DNA of 64,000 nucleotides. Source: Mumia quercus. Its GTDB lineage: Bacteria; Actinomycetota; Actinomycetes; Propionibacteriales; Nocardioidaceae. The stretch spans positions 124,001-188,000 of the forward strand of contig NZ_JANZYO010000004.1 in NCBI RefSeq assembly GCF_025506335.1, read 5' to 3'. Shown in pieces: positions 2,215 through 36,277 of this stretch. The first letter of the stretch is position 1. Each line of letters starts with the position of its first letter. The translations under genes and the position numbers were made by a program. The notes under the pieces were generated by a model. That model was not told where the DNA came from and ran no database searches. It saw nothing but the letters and a program-made list of their open reading frames with translations.

Positions 2215-4302
2215 GTGATGAGAGCGAGCAGCGGTCGAGGACGAGGACGCAGAGCACGGGCGGTCGGCGTGGTGGCGGCCGCGCTCGGGCTCCTGGTGGC
2301 GGCGACGGCGGGCGGTCCGGCCGCCGCGCAAGGCCAGTGGTGGGAGCCCACGAACCCGCCGGCGGTCGAGTCCGAGGTCAACGTGACGGGGGCGCCGTTC
2401 ACCGGCACCGCGCCGAGCGGCGACGTCCGCGGCTACGTCGACGCGCACACTCACATGTTCTCGGACGAGGGCTTCGGCGGGCACGCCGTCTGCGGGGAGA
2501 CGTTCAACCCCGACGGCATCGCGAAGGCGCTCCAGGACTGCGACGGCCACGGCGTCTCCTTGCTGGAGAACCTCACCAACTCCGCCAAGGGAGCCGGACC
2601 CCTCGACAAGCACGACACGACGGGCTGGCCGACGTTCCCCGAGTGGCCGACGTACTCGTCGTTCACGCACCAGCAGATGTACTACAAGTGGGTCGAGCGG
2701 GCGTGGCGCGGCGGCCAGCGGATCATGGTCAACGACCTCGTCTCCAACACGGGCCTCTGCACGATCCTCGGCCTGGTCGCCGGGCCGAACGAGGCACCGT
2801 GCGACGACATGGACGCCGTACGCAGGCAGGCCCGCAAGACGTACGAGCTCCAGTCGTACATCGACGCGCAGTACGGCGGTGCCGGCAAGGGCTGGTTCCG
2901 TGTCGTCACCACCCCGCAGCAGGCGCGCAGCGTCGTCGAGCAGGGCAAGCTGGCCGTGGTCCTCGGCGTCGAGGTCTCGGAGCCGTTCGGGTGCAAGCAG
3001 GTCCTCGGCGTCGCGCAGTGCAGCAAGGCTGACATCGACCGCGGTCTGGACGAGCTGAAGAGCCTCGGCGTCAGCAGCATGTTCCTCTGCCACAAGTTCG
3101 ACAACGCGCTCTGCGGCGTGCGCTACGACGCCGGGACCACCGGGCTCATCGTCAACATCGGCCAGTTCCTCACCACCGGCACCTGGTGGAACCCGCAGCC
3201 CTGCAAGCCGGGCCAGACCCCGGACAACACGGTGATCGGCGGCGTCATCCCGAAGGAGCTCGCCGTGATCCCGGGCCTTCCCGCGGTGCTCCCGGTCTAC
3301 CCGACCGGCCCGCACTGCAACCCGCGAGGGCTGAGCGACCTGGGCGAGTACGCCCTGAAGGGCATGCTGCAGCGCAACATGATGGTCGAGCTGGACCACA
3401 TGAGCGCCAAGGCCGCCGACCGCGCGTTCGAGGTCATGGAGGCGTCGGGCTACCCCGGCGCGCTCTCCAGCCACAGCTGGCTCGCCGGCACCTCGACGGA
3501 GCGCCTCTACAAGCTCGGCGGGTTCGCGACGCAGTACGGCCACTCCGTCGGCGAGTTCGTCGCCGACTGGCAGGCGACGCGCCCGCTGCGCCAGAAGTAC
3601 GGCGTCGCGTACGGGTACGGGACGGACATGAACGGGTTCGGCGGGACCCCCGCTCCCCCGGCGGACGACGCCCAGAAGATCACGTACCCCTTCACCTCCG
3701 TCGACGGTGGGGCGGTGCTCGACCGGCAGCGTACGGGCGAGCGCGTGTGGGACTACAACACCGAGGGCGTCGCGCACTACGGGATGGTCCCGGACTGGAT
3801 CGAGAGCCTGCGTCGTACGGCCGGGTCGGCGCTCACCGACGACCTGATGGCCGGCGCGCAGTCGTACCTCGACACGTGGACCGCGGCCGCTGCTTGGGCC
3901 CCGGGCCTCAACCTGGCGCGCGGCGCGGCGGCGAGCGCAAGCTCCACCGAGTGGACGCTGCTGGGGCGGCTCAAGCCGGCGCAGGCGGTCGACGGCTCGT
4001 TGTCGACGCGCTGGGCAAGCCGGTGGGGACACGACGACGAGTGGTTCCAGGTCGATCTCAACACCGCGCGGCAGGTCTCGCGGGTGACGATCGACTGGGA
4101 GGCGGCGTATGCGTCCCGGTACCGCGTCGAGGTCTCGACCGACGGCAAGACGTGGAGCACGGCAGCGACGGTCGACTCCTCCAACGGCGGCTCGGACACG
4201 GCGACGTTCCCCCCACGCTCGGCACGGTACGTACGGGTGCAGGGCGTCGACCGGGCGACGGACTACGGCATCTCGATCCGCGAGCTCGGCGTCTTCAGCT
4301 GA
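2215..4302 (+). CDS. Secreted membrane-dipeptidase-like amidohydrolase with C-terminal F5/8 type C domain
   Basis: The protein has 695 residues. A signal peptide covers roughly residues 10-39 (Arg-rich start, hydrophobic core, AAAQG cleavage region). The large central domain has metal-dependent hydrolase features: an H-T-H motif at 78-80, an ELDHMS segment and an SHSW segment, as in M19 (renal dipeptidase-like) enzymes. The last 130 or so residues form a discoidin (F5/8 type C) domain, recognisable by a DGSLSTRWAS segment, a WFQVDL strand and a final SIRELGVF strand; such domains usually bind carbohydrate. The enzyme is therefore exported and may be held on glycan surfaces. The substrate is not known. 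GTG 2215 and ATG 2218 are both served by GGAGG at 2205-2209. A strong hairpin follows the stop. Confidence 0.85.
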   Translation: MMRASSGRGRGRRARAVGVVAAALGLLVAATAGGPAAAQGQWWEPTNPPAVESEVNVTGAPFTGTAPSGDVRGYVDAHTHMFSDEGFGGHAVCGETFNPDGIAKALQDCDGHGVSLLENLTNSAKGAGPLDKHDTTGWPTFPEWPTYSSFTHQQMYYKWVERAWRGGQRIMVNDLVSNTGLCTILGLVAGPNEAPCDDMDAVRRQARKTYELQSYIDAQYGGAGKGWFRVVTTPQQARSVVEQGKLAVVLGVEVSEPFGCKQVLGVAQCSKADIDRGLDELKSLGVSSMFLCHKFDNALCGVRYDAGTTGLIVNIGQFLTTGTWWNPQPCKPGQTPDNTVIGGVIPKELAVIPGLPAVLPVYPTGPHCNPRGLSDLGEYALKGMLQRNMMVELDHMSAKAADRAFEVMEASGYPGALSSHSWLAGTSTERLYKLGGFATQYGHSVGEFVADWQATRPLRQKYGVAYGYGTDMNGFGGTPAPPADDAQKITYPFTSVDGGAVLDRQRTGERVWDYNTEGVAHYGMVPDWIESLRRTAGSALTDDLMAGAQSYLDTWTAAAAWAPGLNLARGAAASASSTEWTLLGRLKPAQAVDGSLSTRWASRWGHDDEWFQVDLNTARQVSRVTIDWEAAYASRYRVEVSTDGKTWSTAATVDSSNGGSDTATFPPRSARYVRVQGVDRATDYGISIRELGVFS

Positions 4303-4305
4303 CCC

Positions 4306-4357
4306 CGCGAGTCACCGCCACCGCGGTCGCGAGTCACGTTGCACGTGGCTCGCGACC
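4306..4357. repeat. Two CGCGAGTCAC repeat copies, the second inside a 15-bp hairpin
   Basis: CGCGAGTCAC occurs at 4306 and again at 4328, a 22-base spacing. The second copy forms the left arm of a near-perfect hairpin (4325-4339 against 4343-4357, one G-T pair, three-base loop). There is no T-tract. The hairpin lies just after the amidohydrolase stop and may end that transcript. The same core in inverse orientation follows the flavodoxin gene at 4904-4936 and recurs inside the AtuA gene. Confidence 0.7.
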
Positions 4358-4398: not shown

Positions 4399-4908
4399 AT
4401 GGCGCGAGCAGAGGTCGTGTACGAGTCGATCTGGGGGAACACCGAGGCGGTCGCCCGCGCGGTCGCGGAGGGCATCGCCTCCCGGCTCGGCGAGGCGGAG
4501 GTCTCCGTACGAGCGGCGTCGGACGAGACCGGTCCGGATCCGTCGACGCAGCTCCTGGTCGTGGGCGGACCGACGCACGCGTTCGGCATGTCGCGACCCG
4601 CGACGCGAGAGAGCGCGAAGGAACGCGGCGCCACGACGATCCCCGCCCGCGGGATCCGCGAGTGGATCGACGCGCTAGGCGCGCCGCGTACGAGGGTCGC
4701 CGTCGCGACGTTCGACACGAGGACGGTCTCGCCACGCTTGCCGGGGTCGGCCGCGAAGAAGGCCCTGAAGCGGCTCGTCTCCCTCGGGTACGAGCCCGCC
4801 GCGAAGGCCGAGACCTTCGGCGTGCACGGGTACGAGGGTCCGCTCGCGGACGGCGAGCTCGAGCGTGCGCGCGCGTGGGGCGCGCAGCTCGCCGACCGCG
4901 CGCGGTGA
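4399..4908 (+). CDS. Flavodoxin-domain protein
   Basis: The 169-residue protein looks like a flavodoxin. Near its N-terminus is a phosphate-binding loop of the form YES-WGNTEAVA (about residues 7-17), which holds FMN in this fold, followed by a GGPTHAFGMS segment (about 54-63) that would contact the flavin ring. Its length is normal for a short-chain flavodoxin. The electron partners are unknown and no reductase gene is adjacent. The ATG at 4399 is chosen because GGGGG lies eight bases upstream; a GTG nine bases earlier lacks that spacing. A possible -10 element TAGCGT sits at 4373-4378. Short repeats flank the gene on both sides in inverted orientation. Confidence 0.8.
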   Translation: MARAEVVYESIWGNTEAVARAVAEGIASRLGEAEVSVRAASDETGPDPSTQLLVVGGPTHAFGMSRPATRESAKERGATTIPARGIREWIDALGAPRTRVAVATFDTRTVSPRLPGSAAKKALKRLVSLGYEPAAKAETFGVHGYEGPLADGELERARAWGAQLADRAR

Positions 4909-4936
4909 CTCGCGGGCACGCACACGGTGACTCGCG
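4904..4936. repeat. Two GGTGACTCGCGGG direct repeats, 22-base period
   Basis: GGTGACTCGCGGG begins at 4904 and GGTGACTCGCGGG again at 4926. The first copy overlaps the last codon and stop of the flavodoxin gene; the second ends just before the helR stop codon at 4940. The core is the reverse complement of the copies at 4306 and 4328. Confidence 0.7.
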
Positions 4937-4939
4937 GGC

Positions 4940-7072
4940 TCAGTGGCCGATGCGGTCCAGCCAGTCGCGCGTCGAGCCGACCGTCAGCAGCAGCTGCGTC
5001 GCACGGGTGAGCACGACGTAGAGCGTGCGCCAGCCTGCGTCGGACTCCGCGACGATCTGGTCCGGCTCCACCACGAGCACGGCGTCGAACTCCAGCCCCT
5101 TGGTGTCGAGACCGTCGAGCACGCGCAGGCGGTCGAACTCCTCCCGCTCCTCGGCGAGGGCGTCCGCGATCTCGTCACGGCGGGCCGCCGGGACGACGAC
5201 GGCGACCGTGCCCTCCACCGCGGCGAGCAGGTCGCGCACGCCGCTGCGCACCTCGGCGTGCACGAGGTCGGGCGCGACGAGCACGTGGCGCGGCTCCTGC
5301 CCCGTGCGGCGCACGGCGTCAGGGGTGTCAGCACCCGGGATCGTCGCGTGGGCGACCTCGGCCGCCAGGTCGTAGATCTCGGCGGAGTTGCGGTAGTTGG
5401 TCGACAGCCGGAAGAAGTGCTCGTCCTTCCCGTCGAGCGCGGCAGCGCGGGCGGCCGCCGCCTCGTCCGGGTACGGCCACGAGGACTGCGCCGGGTCGCC
5501 GACGATCGTCCAGCTCGCGTACTTGCCGCGCCGGCCCAGCATGCGCCACTGCATCGGCGAGAGGTCCTGGGCCTCGTCGACCAGCACGTGCGCGTACGAG
5601 TCGTCCTCGATCGACTGCGTCGCACGCTGCTTGCGCGACGCCTGCTCCTCGCGCTCGAACGACATCAGCTGCTTGACGTCGAACGGGTCGTCGTCCTCGT
5701 CGGCCGGCGGGACCTCACCGAGGAGGTAGCGCAGCTCGTCGATCAGCGGCACGTCCTCGATCGAGGGGACGCCCCCAGCCTCCTGCCACGCTGCGGCGAG
5801 CAGCTCGATCTCGCGACGCTTGAGAACGCCCTCGGCGTAGCGGCGCAGCACCTCGACGTCGGCGAGGGACTCCCACACGTCGACCGGGTCGAGCGGCGGC
5901 CACCACGCGGCGGCGAAGTCGAGGAACGCGTCGTCGCCCGTGAGGACCTTGTCGAACTCGTCGCGCTCCTTCTCGAGCGCACGCTCGCCCTCGACCTGCG
6001 CCCACAGCGCGTCGAGGAGGGTCTTCTGGACGCGCCCGTACGCACGGTTGCGCTGCTGTCCCGAGACGAGCTGGCGACGCAGCCGGTCGAGCGCGGCGGC
6101 ATCGAGGCGCAGGACGTCGTCGCGGTAGAAGTAGCGGAACTCGGTCGGCTCGCCCGGCTGGGCGGCGCGGGCGGCGCGGGTCAGCACCTCGACCATGCGC
6201 GCCGAGCCCTTGACGGCGGCGACGTCGGCGCGGTCGTGCGCGCCGGCGGAGACGCCGTCGACGACCTCGCCAAGCGAGCGCAGCGTCACCGAGGTCTCGC
6301 CGAGGCTCGGGAGGACGCGCTCGATGTAGTTCATGAAGACGCCCGACGGCCCGACGACGAGCACGCCTCCGCTCTCGAAGCGGCGACGGTCGACGTACAG
6401 GAGGTACGCGGCGCGGTGCAGGGCGACGACGGTCTTGCCTGTGCCCGGGCCGCCCCCGATGGTGGTGGCACCGCGGCTGGGTGCGCGAATCGCCTCGTCC
6501 TGCTCCTTCTGGATCGTGGCGACGACCGAGTGCATGGACGCGTCGCGGGCGCGCGACAGGCTGGCGAGCAGCGCGCCCTCGCCGACGACCACCATGTCGT
6601 CGGGGGCGTGCTCGCCGTCGAGGAGGTCGTCCTCGACACCGACCACCGTGGAACCGCGGCTGCGGAGCACCCGGCGACGCACGACGCCGGCCGGGTCCTG
6701 CGCCGTGGCCTGGTAGAACACCGCCGCCGCGGGAGCGCGCCAGTCGATGAGCAGCACCTCGCGCTCGGCGTCGCGGACCCCGATGCGGCCGATGTAGCGT
6801 CGGTCGCCGTCACGAAGGTCGAGGCGGCCGAAGACGAGCCCCTCGTGCGCGGCGTTCAGCGCGGCGATGCGCTTGGAGGCCTGGTAGACCATCGCGTCCC
6901 GCTCCACGAGACCGCCCTCGTGACCGACGTGCCCGCGCGCGTAGCCCTCACGGGCCAGCGCCTGGGCCGCCTTCGTCGACTCCTCGAGACGTCCGTAGAC
7001 GACGTCGACGTACGCCTGCTCGGCAGCGATCTCTCGCTGCTCGGCCGACGGCTGGCTGGGGTGGTCTGCCAC
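4940..7072 (-). CDS. helR: RNA polymerase recycling helicase HelD/HelR
   Basis: The 710-residue protein is a UvrD/Rep-like superfamily 1 ATPase of the HelD/HelR type. An N-terminal coiled segment (residues 10-45) is followed by the Walker A loop GGGPGTGKT (about 206-214), a VDEAQDLSP Walker B motif, a STNYRNS motif and a C-terminal VVLTRA motif. HelD proteins insert into the RNA polymerase channels and release stalled enzyme. Actinobacterial HelR can also displace rifamycins. The GTG at 7072 is chosen because GAGGAG lies five bases upstream and the family N-terminus begins there. On its own strand a TTGACA sits about 45 bases upstream of the start, without a clear -10. Downstream lie two short repeats. 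Confidence 0.88.
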   Translation of the reverse strand: MADHPSQPSAEQREIAAEQAYVDVVYGRLEESTKAAQALAREGYARGHVGHEGGLVERDAMVYQASKRIAALNAAHEGLVFGRLDLRDGDRRYIGRIGVRDAEREVLLIDWRAPAAAVFYQATAQDPAGVVRRRVLRSRGSTVVGVEDDLLDGEHAPDDMVVVGEGALLASLSRARDASMHSVVATIQKEQDEAIRAPSRGATTIGGGPGTGKTVVALHRAAYLLYVDRRRFESGGVLVVGPSGVFMNYIERVLPSLGETSVTLRSLGEVVDGVSAGAHDRADVAAVKGSARMVEVLTRAARAAQPGEPTEFRYFYRDDVLRLDAAALDRLRRQLVSGQQRNRAYGRVQKTLLDALWAQVEGERALEKERDEFDKVLTGDDAFLDFAAAWWPPLDPVDVWESLADVEVLRRYAEGVLKRREIELLAAAWQEAGGVPSIEDVPLIDELRYLLGEVPPADEDDDPFDVKQLMSFEREEQASRKQRATQSIEDDSYAHVLVDEAQDLSPMQWRMLGRRGKYASWTIVGDPAQSSWPYPDEAAAARAAALDGKDEHFFRLSTNYRNSAEIYDLAAEVAHATIPGADTPDAVRRTGQEPRHVLVAPDLVHAEVRSGVRDLLAAVEGTVAVVVPAARRDEIADALAEEREEFDRLRVLDGLDTKGLEFDAVLVVEPDQIVAESDAGWRTLYVVLTRATQLLLTVGSTRDWLDRIGH

Positions 7073-30434: not shown

Positions 30435-32042
30435 TCACAGCCGGAACACCCCGTAGCCACGGGCCCCTTCGATCGGGGCGTTCGCGATCGCGCTCAGGCA
30501 GATGCCGAGCACGGTGCGCGTGTCGCGCGGGTCGATGACACCGTCGTCGTACAGCAGCCCGGACGTGAAGTACGCCAGCGACTGCTCCTCGATCTGCTTC
30601 TCGATGAACGCGCGCATCTGCTTGTCGCCGTCCTCGTCGTACGGCATGCCCTTGGCCTCGGCCGCTCCGCGGGCGACGATCGAGATCACGCCGGCCAGCT
30701 GAGCCGGACCCATGACGGCCGACTTGGCGTTGGGCCAGCTGAACATGAACCGCGGGTCGTACGCACGACCGCTCATGCCGTAGTGCCCGGCACCGTACGA
30801 GGCGCCCATGACGACCGAGATGTGCGGCACCGTCGAGTTGGAGACCGCGTTGATCATCTGCGCGCCGTGCTTGATGATGCCGCCCTGCTCGTACTCCGCG
30901 CCCACCATGTAGCCGGTGGTGTTGTGGAGGAACAGCAGCGGGGTGTCCGTCTGGTTGGCCAGCTGGATGAACTGCGCCGCCTTCTGCGCCTCCTCGCTGA
31001 ACAGGACGCCCTGCGCGTTGGCCAGGATGCCGATCGGGTAGCCGTGGATCTGGGCGAACCCCGTGACCAGCGACGACCCGTACAGCGGCTTGAACTCGTC
31101 GAAGCCCGTCCCACCGTCGACCTCCGGGCCGTCCACGATGCGCGCGATCACCTCGCGCGGGTCGAACGGGACCTTCAGGTCGCTCGGGACGATCCCGAGC
31201 AGCTCCTCGGGGTCGTACGCCGGCTCGGCGTACGACGCCTTCGGCGTCGGACCCTGCTTGCGCCAGTTGAGGCGGCGCACGATCTGGCGGCCGAGGCGGA
31301 TCGCGTCGCGCTCGTCCACCGCGAGGTAGTCGGCGAGACCCGAGACGCGGGCGTGCATCTCCGCACCGCCCAGCGACTCGTCGTCGGACTCCTCGCCGGT
31401 GGCCATCTTCACCAGCGGCGGGCCGCCGAGGAAGACCTTGGCGCCCTCCTTGACCATGACGACGTAGTCGCTCATGCCCGGGACGTACGCGCCACCGGCG
31501 GTCGAGTTGCCGAAGACGAGCGCCACGGTCGGTACGCGCGCGGCGCTCGACTGCGTGATGTTGCGGAACGTCGCGCCGCCGGGGATGAAGATGTCCTTCT
31601 GCGTCGGCAGGTCGGCGCCGCCGGACTCGACGAGGTTGATCGTCGGGAGCCGGTTCTCGGCGGCGATCTGCGCGGCGCGCAGGCCCTTCTTGACGGTGAG
31701 GGGGTTGCTGGAGCCGCCCTTCACCGTCGGGTCGTTCGCGATGATCATGCACTCGACGCCCTCGACGACGCCGATGCCGGAGATCAGCGAGCCGCCGACC
31801 GGGAAGTCGGTGCCCCACGCGGCCAGCGTGGACAGCTCCAGGAACGGCGCGCCTTCGTCGAGCAGCAGCTCGATGCGCTCGCGCGCGAGCAGCTTCCCAC
31901 GCTTGTGGTGGCGGGCGACGTACTTCTCACCGCCTCCCGCGAGCGCCTTCGCGTGCTGCTCGGCGAGGTCGTCGATCTTCTCGAGCAACGCCTCGCGGTT
32001 CTCGTGGTACGTGGGTGACGCGGTGTCCACCGTCGTCGTCAT
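30435..32042 (-). CDS. Acyl-CoA carboxylase beta subunit (carboxyltransferase)
   Basis: The 535-residue protein is a carboxyltransferase beta subunit of the MCC/GCC type. It has the opening KLLARERIELLLDEGAPFLEL, the acyl-CoA site NDPTVKGGSSNPLTVKK, GGGATFRNI-like GGATFRN, and the second site MGASYGAGHYGMSGRAYDPRF. The GMSGRAYDPRF string is typical of methylcrotonyl/geranyl-CoA carboxylases, and less of propionyl-CoA ones. It forms the holoenzyme with the alpha subunit, 26 bases downstream. Its ATG overlaps the stop of the winged-helix gene by four bases. Confidence 0.92.
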   Translation of the reverse strand: MTTTVDTASPTYHENREALLEKIDDLAEQHAKALAGGGEKYVARHHKRGKLLARERIELLLDEGAPFLELSTLAAWGTDFPVGGSLISGIGVVEGVECMIIANDPTVKGGSSNPLTVKKGLRAAQIAAENRLPTINLVESGGADLPTQKDIFIPGGATFRNITQSSAARVPTVALVFGNSTAGGAYVPGMSDYVVMVKEGAKVFLGGPPLVKMATGEESDDESLGGAEMHARVSGLADYLAVDERDAIRLGRQIVRRLNWRKQGPTPKASYAEPAYDPEELLGIVPSDLKVPFDPREVIARIVDGPEVDGGTGFDEFKPLYGSSLVTGFAQIHGYPIGILANAQGVLFSEEAQKAAQFIQLANQTDTPLLFLHNTTGYMVGAEYEQGGIIKHGAQMINAVSNSTVPHISVVMGASYGAGHYGMSGRAYDPRFMFSWPNAKSAVMGPAQLAGVISIVARGAAEAKGMPYDEDGDKQMRAFIEKQIEEQSLAYFTSGLLYDDGVIDPRDTRTVLGICLSAIANAPIEGARGYGVFRL

Positions 32043-33292
32043 CGTGGTGCCTCCATGATCAGCTCGACCCGGGTGTCGAGGTAGTGGGAGAAGCGGTCGG
32101 CCTGCTCCGCGAACCTGTCGCGGACGGCCGAGGTCGTGTCGGTGAGGAGCGTCAGGCTGACGCTCGCGGGATCGTTCTTGCGGGTGGGGCGCGTCCACTT
32201 CCAGCCGCCGACGACGCGCCCTTCGTCGACGGCGAGGCCCCAGAAGAAGAGGCCTTCGATCGGCTCGCGCACGTAGTCCGTGCTCGCGTCGACGGCCTGG
32301 CGGTTCTTGTAGGCGATGAGGTACTCGTCGTACGGCGGCAGCAGCCGGCTGGTCGAGCCCTCCACGCTGGTCGAGTAGGCCGAGCCGCTAGGCGAGGCCG
32401 TATCGAGACCCTCCACGCTGGTCGAGTAGGCCGAGCCGCTAGGCGAGGCCGTATCGAGACCCCCCACGCTGGTCGAGTAGGCCGAGCCGCTAGGCGAGGC
32501 CGTATCGAGACCCTCCAGGTCCCAGTACGTCAGCCCCTCGCGCTCGTACGAGACCGCGCCGGCCGCCTCGTACCCGCGCCGCGCGTCGCCGACCGTGATG
32601 CCGCCCCACCAGGAGAGGTCGTGCGGCGTCGCCGGGCCGTGGCCGCGGAGGTAGCACTCCGCCAGCCGGGCGACCGCCTCGTCGTGGTCGACGGGGTCGG
32701 CGGCCGGCACCCGGTCGTCGAAGGCGGCGAAGGTCTGCTGCTTGCCCTGCGGCGCACCGCTGATCGCGACCCGGTCGAGCTCGGCGGCGAGGGTGAGGAA
32801 GCCTGCGCGTTTCGTCGTGTCGACGCCGCGCGCCTCGAGCCGCTCCGCGATCTGCTTGCGGGTGAGGTGCTCGCCGTCGGCGAGGATCTCACCGACGGCG
32901 TCGAGGATCCGGGCCCGCTCGTGCGGGTCGTCGAGCCCGTTCGCCCGCCACGCCGACGCCAAGGAGCGCACGATGCGTGGCCCGGTGAGCTCCAGCATCC
33001 AGCGCGCATCCGCGGGACGCACGAAGTGCCAGGTCGGGCGCAGCACGTGGGTGCGCAGGATCTCTCCGGCCGCCACCAGCGCCTCGACCTCGGCCGCCGT
33101 CGGGGCGCCCTCGCTGCGTTGCGAGAGCGCCCACCCGGCGTCGACGTACTCCTGCGCCTGCACCGCGCCGAGCCGCTCGACCACGTCGACCGGGGAGGCG
33201 AACGGCTCGCCGACGAGCCGCTGCCGGCTCAGGCGGGCGCTGCGCAGCGGCGACCAGTCACCGTCTGCGGGCTCGGAGTACGTGGCGACCAT
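32039..33292 (-). CDS. AlkZ-like winged-helix (HTH_42) DNA glycosylase family protein with in-frame repeats
   Basis: The 417-residue protein belongs to the HTH_42 winged-helix family, whose studied members (AlkZ, YcaQ) are DNA glycosylases acting on alkylated or crosslinked bases. A Q-A-Q triad (Gln45, Gln47) matches the catalytic QxQ motif of AlkZ. Further family strings are LRPTWHFVRPADARW and LLPPYDEYLIAYKNRQ. Residues about 261-311 are three copies of GLDTASPSGSAYSTSVE (encoded by a 51-base DNA repeat) sitting between YWDLE and LLPPYDEYL, where relatives have a short linker. GAGGAG is seven bases before the ATG. A repair-type gene inside an acyl-CoA operon is unexpected; ATGA overlap with the carboxylase shows it is truly embedded. 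Confidence 0.82.
   Translation of the reverse strand: MVATYSEPADGDWSPLRSARLSRQRLVGEPFASPVDVVERLGAVQAQEYVDAGWALSQRSEGAPTAAEVEALVAAGEILRTHVLRPTWHFVRPADARWMLELTGPRIVRSLASAWRANGLDDPHERARILDAVGEILADGEHLTRKQIAERLEARGVDTTKRAGFLTLAAELDRVAISGAPQGKQQTFAAFDDRVPAADPVDHDEAVARLAECYLRGHGPATPHDLSWWGGITVGDARRGYEAAGAVSYEREGLTYWDLEGLDTASPSGSAYSTSVGGLDTASPSGSAYSTSVEGLDTASPSGSAYSTSVEGSTSRLLPPYDEYLIAYKNRQAVDASTDYVREPIEGLFFWGLAVDEGRVVGGWKWTRPTRKNDPASVSLTLLTDTTSAVRDRFAEQADRFSHYLDTRVELIMEAPR
32360..32512. repeat. Three tandem 51-base repeats inside the winged-helix gene
   Basis: Units 32360-32410, 32411-32461 and 32462-32512 are identical apart from one base (CTCC to CCCC at the start of the third). On the coding strand each unit contains GGTCTCGATACGG at one end and CTACTCGACCAGCG at the other, and is exactly 17 codons long, so frame is kept. 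Confidence 0.95.
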
Positions 33293-34505: not shown

Positions 34506-36277
34506 GGGAGGAGCTCCTCGGGGACGTCGACGACACGGGCACGGAGCCACTCGCCCAGCGCCTTGGCCTGGGGGTCGAAGCGGGTGGATGCGGCAACCCC
34601 GTCACCGAGGAAGCCGTGCGCGACCACGTTGACGGCGCGCAGGTTGGGCAGCGGGTGGATCTCGAGGTCGAGGTCGGCCGCCTCGGGGATCAATGTCCTG
34701 AAGGTCTCGGCGTCGAGCAGCTCGACCAGCCACGCGTACGCCGCGTCGGGGTCGGCGACGTCGCTGCGGACCCAGACGCCGACGTTGGCGTCGCCGCCCT
34801 TGTCGCCGCTGCGGGTGTGGACCACCCGCCCCAGCGGCACCGCTCGCGAGTCACCGCGTGCGGGGTCGCGAGTCACCGCGGGTGCGGAATCCTCTCGCGA
34901 GTGTGCGCGAGGTGACTCGCGAGTGTGCGCGGGGTGACTCGCGAGCGTGGAAGTGGGGGCGGGGATGTCGAGGCGGGTGCCGTCGGCGAGCACCACGGTG
35001 TGCGGGACGACCTCCTGCGGGACGTAGGCCGGGGTGTAGACCCCGTACGGCGTCCCCGCCGCGGGCGGCCGGGTGACGGTGAAGCCGGGGTACGACGCGA
35101 GGGCGAGCTCGACCGCCGCGGAGGAGAACGCGCGCCCGACCGGGTCGGGAGACATCGCCTTCACGTGGCAGCGCAGGAGCGCGGTCGCGCGTCCCTGCGT
35201 CTCGGGGTCCTCGACGTCGGTGCGGTCGAGGTCCCAGACGACCTCGTCGGGTATCCCCGCCGGCGACTGCGCGAGGGCGTCCTCGACCTGCAGCCGCACC
35301 AGCGCGGCCTTCTCCTCGATGTCGAGCCCGGTCAGCACGAACTCGACGCTGTTGCGGAAACCGCCGAAGGAGTTGAGCGCGACCTTCGTCGTCGCCGGCG
35401 GAGCGGACCCGCGCACTCCGGACACCGCCACCCTGTCCTCGCCGTCCTGCGTGAGGACGACCGAGTCCAGGTGGGTGACGACGTCAGGGCCGGCGTACGC
35501 GGGGCCGCCGATCTCGTACACGAGCTGCGCCGTGACGGTGTCGACGGAGACGACGCCTCCGGTCCCCTCGTGCTTGGTGATGACGCTGCTGCCGTCGGCG
35601 GCGATCTCGGCGATCGGGAAGCCGGGGTGCAGCATCGTCTTGGGGTCGAGCGTCGCGAATCCGGAGAAGTTGCCGCCGGTCGCCTGCGCCCCGCACTCGA
35701 CGACGTGACCGGCGACGACGGCGCCGGCGAGGGCGTCGTAGTCCTCGCGCCCCCACCCGTACGCGTGGATCGCCGGTCCGACGACGACCGAGGCGTCGGT
35801 GACGCGGCCGGTCACGACGACGTCCGCACCGGCGTCGAGGGCGGCGGCGATGCCGAACGCGCCCAGGTAGGCGTTGGCGGTGATCGGCGGCTGCCCGCCG
35901 TGGCCGACGAGGCCGAGCTCGTCGGCCCGCGGCCGCAGGTCGTCGCCCTCGACGTGGGCGACGACGATGTCGAGACCCTGCTCGGAGGCGATCTCGCGCA
36001 GCTTCTCGGCGAGGCCTGCCGGGTTGAGGCCGCCGGCGTTGGTGACGATCCGGACGCCGCGCTCCTTCGCCAGGCCCATGCAGTCGGTCATCTGGCGGAC
36101 GAACGTCTTGGCGTAGCCGAGCGAGGCGTCCTTCATCCGGTCGCGGCCGAGGATGAGCATCGTGAGCTCGGCAAGGTAGTCGCCGGTCAGGTAGTCGAGG
36201 TCGCCGTCGGTCAGCATCTCCCGCATGGCGGCGAGACGGTCACCGTAGAAGCCGGAGCAGTTGCCGATGCGGATCAT
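34502..36277 (-). CDS. atuA: Acyclic terpene utilisation family protein AtuA, with repeat insertion
   Basis: The 591-residue protein matches the AtuA (DUF1446) family: it opens IRIGNCSGFYGDRLAAM, continues with VVTGRVTDASVVVGPA and a GGVVSVDTVTAQLVYEIGGP segment, and ends with the smaller C-terminal domain (HTRSGDKGGDANVGVWV). AtuA is required for citronellol/geraniol growth in Pseudomonas, but its chemistry is not settled. Residues about 443-478 (HTRESPRAHSRED and flanking low-complexity sequence) are encoded by short DNA repeats and sit exactly between the two domains. GGAGGG lies seven bases before the ATG. Start overlaps the TIGR03084 gene's stop. Confidence 0.88.
   Translation of the reverse strand: MIRIGNCSGFYGDRLAAMREMLTDGDLDYLTGDYLAELTMLILGRDRMKDASLGYAKTFVRQMTDCMGLAKERGVRIVTNAGGLNPAGLAEKLREIASEQGLDIVVAHVEGDDLRPRADELGLVGHGGQPPITANAYLGAFGIAAALDAGADVVVTGRVTDASVVVGPAIHAYGWGREDYDALAGAVVAGHVVECGAQATGGNFSGFATLDPKTMLHPGFPIAEIAADGSSVITKHEGTGGVVSVDTVTAQLVYEIGGPAYAGPDVVTHLDSVVLTQDGEDRVAVSGVRGSAPPATTKVALNSFGGFRNSVEFVLTGLDIEEKAALVRLQVEDALAQSPAGIPDEVVWDLDRTDVEDPETQGRATALLRCHVKAMSPDPVGRAFSSAAVELALASYPGFTVTRPPAAGTPYGVYTPAYVPQEVVPHTVVLADGTRLDIPAPTSTLASHPAHTRESPRAHSREDSAPAVTRDPARGDSRAVPLGRVVHTRSGDKGGDANVGVWVRSDVADPDAAYAWLVELLDAETFRTLIPEAADLDLEIHPLPNLRAVNVVAHGFLGDGVAASTRFDPQAKALGEWLRARVVDVPEELLP
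34844..34944. repeat. Cluster of TCGCGAGTCACC repeats inside atuA
   Basis: TCGCGAGTCACC occurs at 34844 and 34866 (22-base spacing). Then a 22-base unit starting TCGCGAGTGTGCGCG is repeated at 34895 and 34917, carrying the inverse core GGTGACTCGCGA at 34911 and 34933. The region is thus two copies in each orientation. Matching cores flank the flavodoxin gene 30 kb away (4306-4357, 4904-4936). Confidence 0.9.

Follow-up and report, generated by a model that had tools for sequence, protein, structure and literature searches.

REPs located inside genes, repair genes included, and palindromes that code for protein in Rickettsia are established in bacteria (PMC3733652). In that paper (Di Nocera et al., 2013; PMC3733652), GTAG-REPs and BIMEs are described as short imperfect palindromes with GTAG at the foot of the stem, present in high copy number and inverted pairs mostly beside gene 3' ends; some lie within genes, among them repair genes. 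The Rickettsia palindromic elements (RPEs) of the same account are in-frame palindromes within genes whose products probably work. The main text makes no mention of Actinobacteria.

The repeat of the actinobacterial genus Mumia analyzed here resembles the GTAG-REPs in all the features listed above, and it resembles the RPEs in its in-frame location within genes that probably encode working proteins. Relative to GTAG-REPs as described in that source, in-frame tandem expansion and the occupancy of orthologous linkers by each species' own repeat type are Mumia features, and the Mumia repeat also differs in that no RAYT (PF01797) was found in the repeat-bearing genomes. Relative to the RPEs described there, it has another sequence, belongs to an unrelated phylum, and uses multiple frames and both orientations. 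We found it in frame in AlkZ-like, NarG-like, and PabB-PabC genes; however, it lacks the CGTC tag of the R. conorii elements and carries GTAG instead, and it therefore works like an RPE but is none. As far as these descriptions go, the Mumia repeat is the same kind of phenomenon as REPs and RPEs, in Actinobacteria.

The AlkZ-like gene and its array

The window is a stretch of 64,000 nt (positions 124001-188000 of contig C8) from a 4.1-Mb Mumia genome, G000, whose nearest named relative is Mumia xiangluensis. Its features are as follows.

32039..33292, minus strand: AlkZ-like (PF06224) gene, 417 aa; Q-Phi-Q motif QAQ, residues 45-47, intact
32462..32512, minus strand: unit 1, 51 bp, GLDTASPSGSAYSTSVG, residues 261-277; core repeat 32470-32512
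32411..32461, minus strand: unit 2, 51 bp, GLDTASPSGSAYSTSVE, residues 278-294; core repeat 32419-32461
32360..32410, minus strand: unit 3, 51 bp, GLDTASPSGSAYSTSVE, residues 295-311; core repeat 32368-32410
32345..32359, minus strand: partial unit tail TCGACCAGC / GGCTCGACCAGCCGG (residues GSTSR), directly before LLPPYDEYL; 18-nt spacing

The original prediction placed three in-frame units of 51 bases, or 17 codons, at 32360-32512 inside this gene, and this was borne out by the ORF and by TRF, which reported a period of 51 with 3.3 copies and a 97% match at 32353-32517 of the window. The array adds 51 residues in frame (residues 261-311); the units read GLDTASPSGSAYSTSV(G/E) and are followed by the partial tail GSTSR and then by LLPPYDEYL. 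The further claim that the same residues appear three times holds for units 2 and 3, both ending in SVE, and needs correction for unit 1, which differs from them by a single substitution (GGG/GAG) and thus by one residue. Rfam gave no match to the array.

The product matches the AlkZ-like family PF06224, and its similarity to the solved AlkZ structure (PDB 5uuj) is recognizable. The Q-Phi-Q motif described for AlkZ-like proteins (PMC9040887) is present as QAQ, with alanine at the Phi position. The protein thus shares the family domain and the motif with AlkZ and AlkZ-like glycosylases, and is putatively a glycosylase itself, but is unlike known AlkZ in its linker of 59 aa, consisting mostly of repeat units. 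In 85 AlkZ homologs, by comparison, the linker spans 12-30 aa. An AlphaFold2 model built with 54 sequences (pTM 0.86) has pLDDT of at least 90 at 319 of 417 residues and below 50 at residues 268-310. The insert is accordingly predicted to form a floppy, disordered loop that connects two beta strands and leaves the fold intact.

A dispersed hairpin repeat

The 43-nt core of the unit is common to 77-96 loci across the genome. The pattern GGTCTCGATACG-N5..30-CTACTCGACCA has 77 matches (38+39) and a looser pattern has 96, compared to none for either in the same genome reversed, and thus chance is excluded. The repeat consists of constant ends enclosing a stem-loop whose stem covaries: among 49 distinct variants, stem pairs 2, 3, and 4 are paired in 42, 49, and 41, respectively, whereas the shuffle maxima are 34, 37, and 37. 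Every copy listed ends in ...CTACTCGA, which is TCGAGTAG plus the stem on the other strand, where GTAG precedes the stem.

The 96 copies form 44 clusters, 34 of them between genes, five at contig edges, and five inside called ORFs; the intergenic clusters lie between co-directional (18), convergent (11), or divergent (5) genes. Near gene 3' ends the repeat provides tails or stop codons. Clusters are often alternating BIME-like dimers, with many -+ pairs. An imperfect palindrome with a supported stem, a GTAG foot, and a high, mostly extragenic copy number with inverted dimers thus place the repeat beside the GTAG-REPs. The suggestion that the unit ends come from an intergenic repeat common in Nocardioides-type genomes was supported, in that the repeat is dispersed, lies mostly between genes, and also occurs in other genomes of this family.

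In contigs C1, C2, C9, and C11, repeat arrays are found approximately 150-210 bp from a contig end. The assembly was probably interrupted by them and may lack arrays of greater length. The window also contains a second, unrelated inverted repeat, based on GTGACTCGCGAG / CTCGCGAGTCACCGCG (34825-34963, 4299-4337, and 4901-4943), with a 22-bp tandem version at 34894-34949.

Copies in other genes and the reading frame

Mumia has many such events besides the one in AlkZ. In the same genome, a NarG-like gene contains an in-frame inverted dimer and a partial tandem copy, the linker between PabB and PabC of a fused aminodeoxychorismate synthase contains one full and two partial copies in frame, and a small membrane protein also carries the repeat in frame. 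In the sampled stretches of congeners, repeats inside called genes number 28 of 61 in G003, 7 of 25 in G005, and 8 of 29 in G001; these counts are approximate because genes were called by a simple codon score. By eye, we take the repeat-bearing genes of congeners to include an acyltransferase E2, a DnaX-like protein, and a UvrD/RecB-like protein. Intragenic repeats use multiple frames and both orientations, and the encoded peptide varies with the frame and the repeat type. Hence, the original idea that a repeat entered a gene and multiplied there stands in its core, but not as a single event.

In two further cases a repeat lies at the apparent start of a gene. In an HutF-like gene on contig C10 (L153:3004-4197), a copy begins two codons downstream of the presumed start, with no in-frame sign of the usual N-terminal domain. 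In G003 (L207:18923-19164), a called ORF opens with nine 27-bp units of a GGTTTCGACAGGCTCAACC-type repeat, translated as GFDRLNQRL; these units may form a true N-terminus or may belong to an array upstream of the gene.

Of the 21 tandem arrays with the repeat core that lie inside genes, 20 have a period divisible by three, compared to 12 of the 32 outside (Fisher P=1.5e-5), with the gene calls resting on a simple codon score, gene-breaking arrays by definition not counted as inside genes, and a few short-period arrays holding the core motif alone and possibly being unrelated. Duplication is therefore blind to frame, and selection removes the frame-breaking steps and retains those divisible by three, a rule seen statistically over many genes.

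Distribution and age of the linker insert

Of the 79 genomes in the relatives set, 9 carry the long type with exact ends, and of the 247 in the class set, 13 do; both counts include G000 itself. Within these sets the long type is confined to two families, the second of which includes a genome with 280 copies. Among Mumia genomes, copies number 89 in G000, 39 in G001, 5 in G003, and 2 in G005, with none in G002 and G004. G003 has its own short type, GGTCTCGACAGGCTCGACC, in many cases followed by GGCGG; 67 exact copies of it occur in G003 and none in G000. In G024, from a related family (L164-L167), long regular arrays with approximately 158-165 bp per period are formed by inverted pairs with fully covarying stems.

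Three congeners have an AlkZ ortholog, with linkers of 17, 21, and 26 aa that lack the 17-aa unit. In all four Mumia orthologs, linker DNA resembles the species' own repeat type: G005 has the own-type-like GGTCTCGATCGACTCCGTCGCCTCGACCAGCGG, G003 has GGTCTCGAGACGTCCTCGACCGGCGG, to be compared with its genome type GGTCTCGACAGGCTCGACC, and G001 has a degenerate form ending in CTCAACCAGCGG. The repeat-like sequence is imperfect in G003 and G001, and for this reason we infer, rather than observe, that the occupied site goes back to a common ancestor. The PabB-PabC linker (L184-L189) of G000, G001, G003, and G005 shows a comparable own-type pattern, with an intact inverted dimer in G001 and a decayed long-type copy in G003, and two NarG loops (L176-L182) hold own-type repeats in several Mumia species. 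Judging from these sequences, the AlkZ linker was probably colonized before the Mumia species split. The AlkZ, PabB-PabC, and NarG linkers would all have been occupied before speciation, and their copies would later have been replaced via gene conversion or new insertions. Shared repeat sites have a precedent in REPs described at about the same recB site in two Xanthomonas species (PMC3733652).

The insert had been proposed to be recent. This is true of the triplication in the window's lineage, given one base difference among three units; it probably does not extend to the arrival of the repeat, since the linkers of three congeners hold the repeat types of their own species.

Search for a mobilizer

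Searches for the RAYT-type Y1 transposase (PF01797) detected none in G000 or in any other repeat-bearing genome covered; a direct search of 13 repeat-bearing genomes at a single threshold gave none, while control genomes responded. The four relatives that do have PF01797 lack long-type repeats. Given this absence, we do not classify the repeat as a RAYT-REP, and a very divergent Y1 enzyme may exist in the repeat-bearing genomes, or one may have been lost recently. The ORFs enclosed by two repeat pairs (C8:561953-563957 and C6:404649-406845) are, by eye, ordinary-looking genes with no transposase among them. Alignment of nine loci between G000 and G003 revealed neither a clean insertion boundary nor a target-site duplication in flanks that are intergenic and too diverged, with the short repeat of G003 itself present at several sites. 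Mobility of the repeat is thus deduced from its copy number and patchy distribution.

Origin of the array

Our preferred explanation, to which we assign a probability of about 0.75, is that the array consists of copies of a dispersed REP-like hairpin repeat inside a coding gene, with an early arrival, a later triplication, selection acting as a filter on frame, and a neutral disordered linker as the outcome. A copy would have settled in the AlkZ-like linker, probably earlier than the divergence of the Mumia species sampled. The linker copy in the lineage of the window belongs to the genome's own long type, GGTCTCGATACG-stem-CTACTCGACC, and would have been duplicated in tandem to three units, likely by replication slippage or unequal recombination at the hairpin. 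Such duplication would be frame-blind, with selection leaving the steps divisible by three. Since the encoded Gly/Ser/Pro-rich peptide is predicted to form a disordered loop, the AlkZ-like fold would be left intact.

The timing of arrival is where another scenario competes most seriously. The repeat could have entered AlkZ in the window's lineage alone, with the repeat-like sequence of the congener linkers arising from separate insertions into this tolerant loop. At the shared sites the repeat type is that of the species concerned, in several cases near its genome consensus, and these sites are loops that tolerate changes of length. However, several species have repeats in the AlkZ and PabB-PabC linkers and in two NarG loops, a pattern that scattered insertion would hardly produce unless such loops were strongly preferred, and we consider this scenario plausible but doubtful. 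Duplication of an ordinary low-complexity coding stretch, with a coincidental likeness to intergenic DNA, would have the advantage that tandem duplications are common in linkers. A covarying stem would not arise from a coding origin, though, and a core found at so many loci and never in the control leads us to reject a purely coding origin of the unit, leaving it practically no chance.

A longer linker or a variable number of units might be useful, for instance by providing a spacer that can be tuned or a site that can be switched. The recurrence of repeats in the linkers of several enzymes, and the potential of the array to vary by whole units, would agree with that; yet many unrelated proteins are affected, their peptides change with frame and repeat type, and the AlkZ insert is predicted to be disordered. 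Since changes by 51-bp units preserve the frame, they should not cause on/off switching, and selection for the array is improbable. Still less credible is an error of assembly in the number of units. Contig ends near other arrays do suggest breaks at repeats, but the AlkZ array is internal to its contig, its unit 1 is one base off the other two, and the insert is continuous in frame with the coding sequence at either end, whatever the unit number.

Significance

Literature searches with the core DNA strings returned no paper, or unrelated ones that resembled chance strings in primers or probes, and those on intragenic palindromes in Actinobacteria returned nothing closer than the GTAG-REP paper. 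Provisionally, within an incomplete coverage of the literature, in-frame tandem expansion as a rule, own-type repeats in orthologous linkers, and the lack of a detectable RAYT appear to be new.

The data suggest that hairpin repeats keep colonizing and stretching protein linkers. A one-gene oddity thus becomes a testable rule, by which frame-blind hairpin duplication together with selection lengthens the disordered linkers of metabolic and repair enzymes. For a REP-like family with no detectable RAYT, a comparison of species rich in the repeat with species free of it offers a way to look for the mobilizer. More speculatively, Actinobacteria may carry a REP-like superfamily with ends GGTCTCGA...TCGACC, mobilized by some enzyme that is not RAYT, that repeatedly colonizes the same interdomain linkers and rewrites them from one species to the next. 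If so, dispersed hairpin DNA would be a continuing source of new protein linkers.
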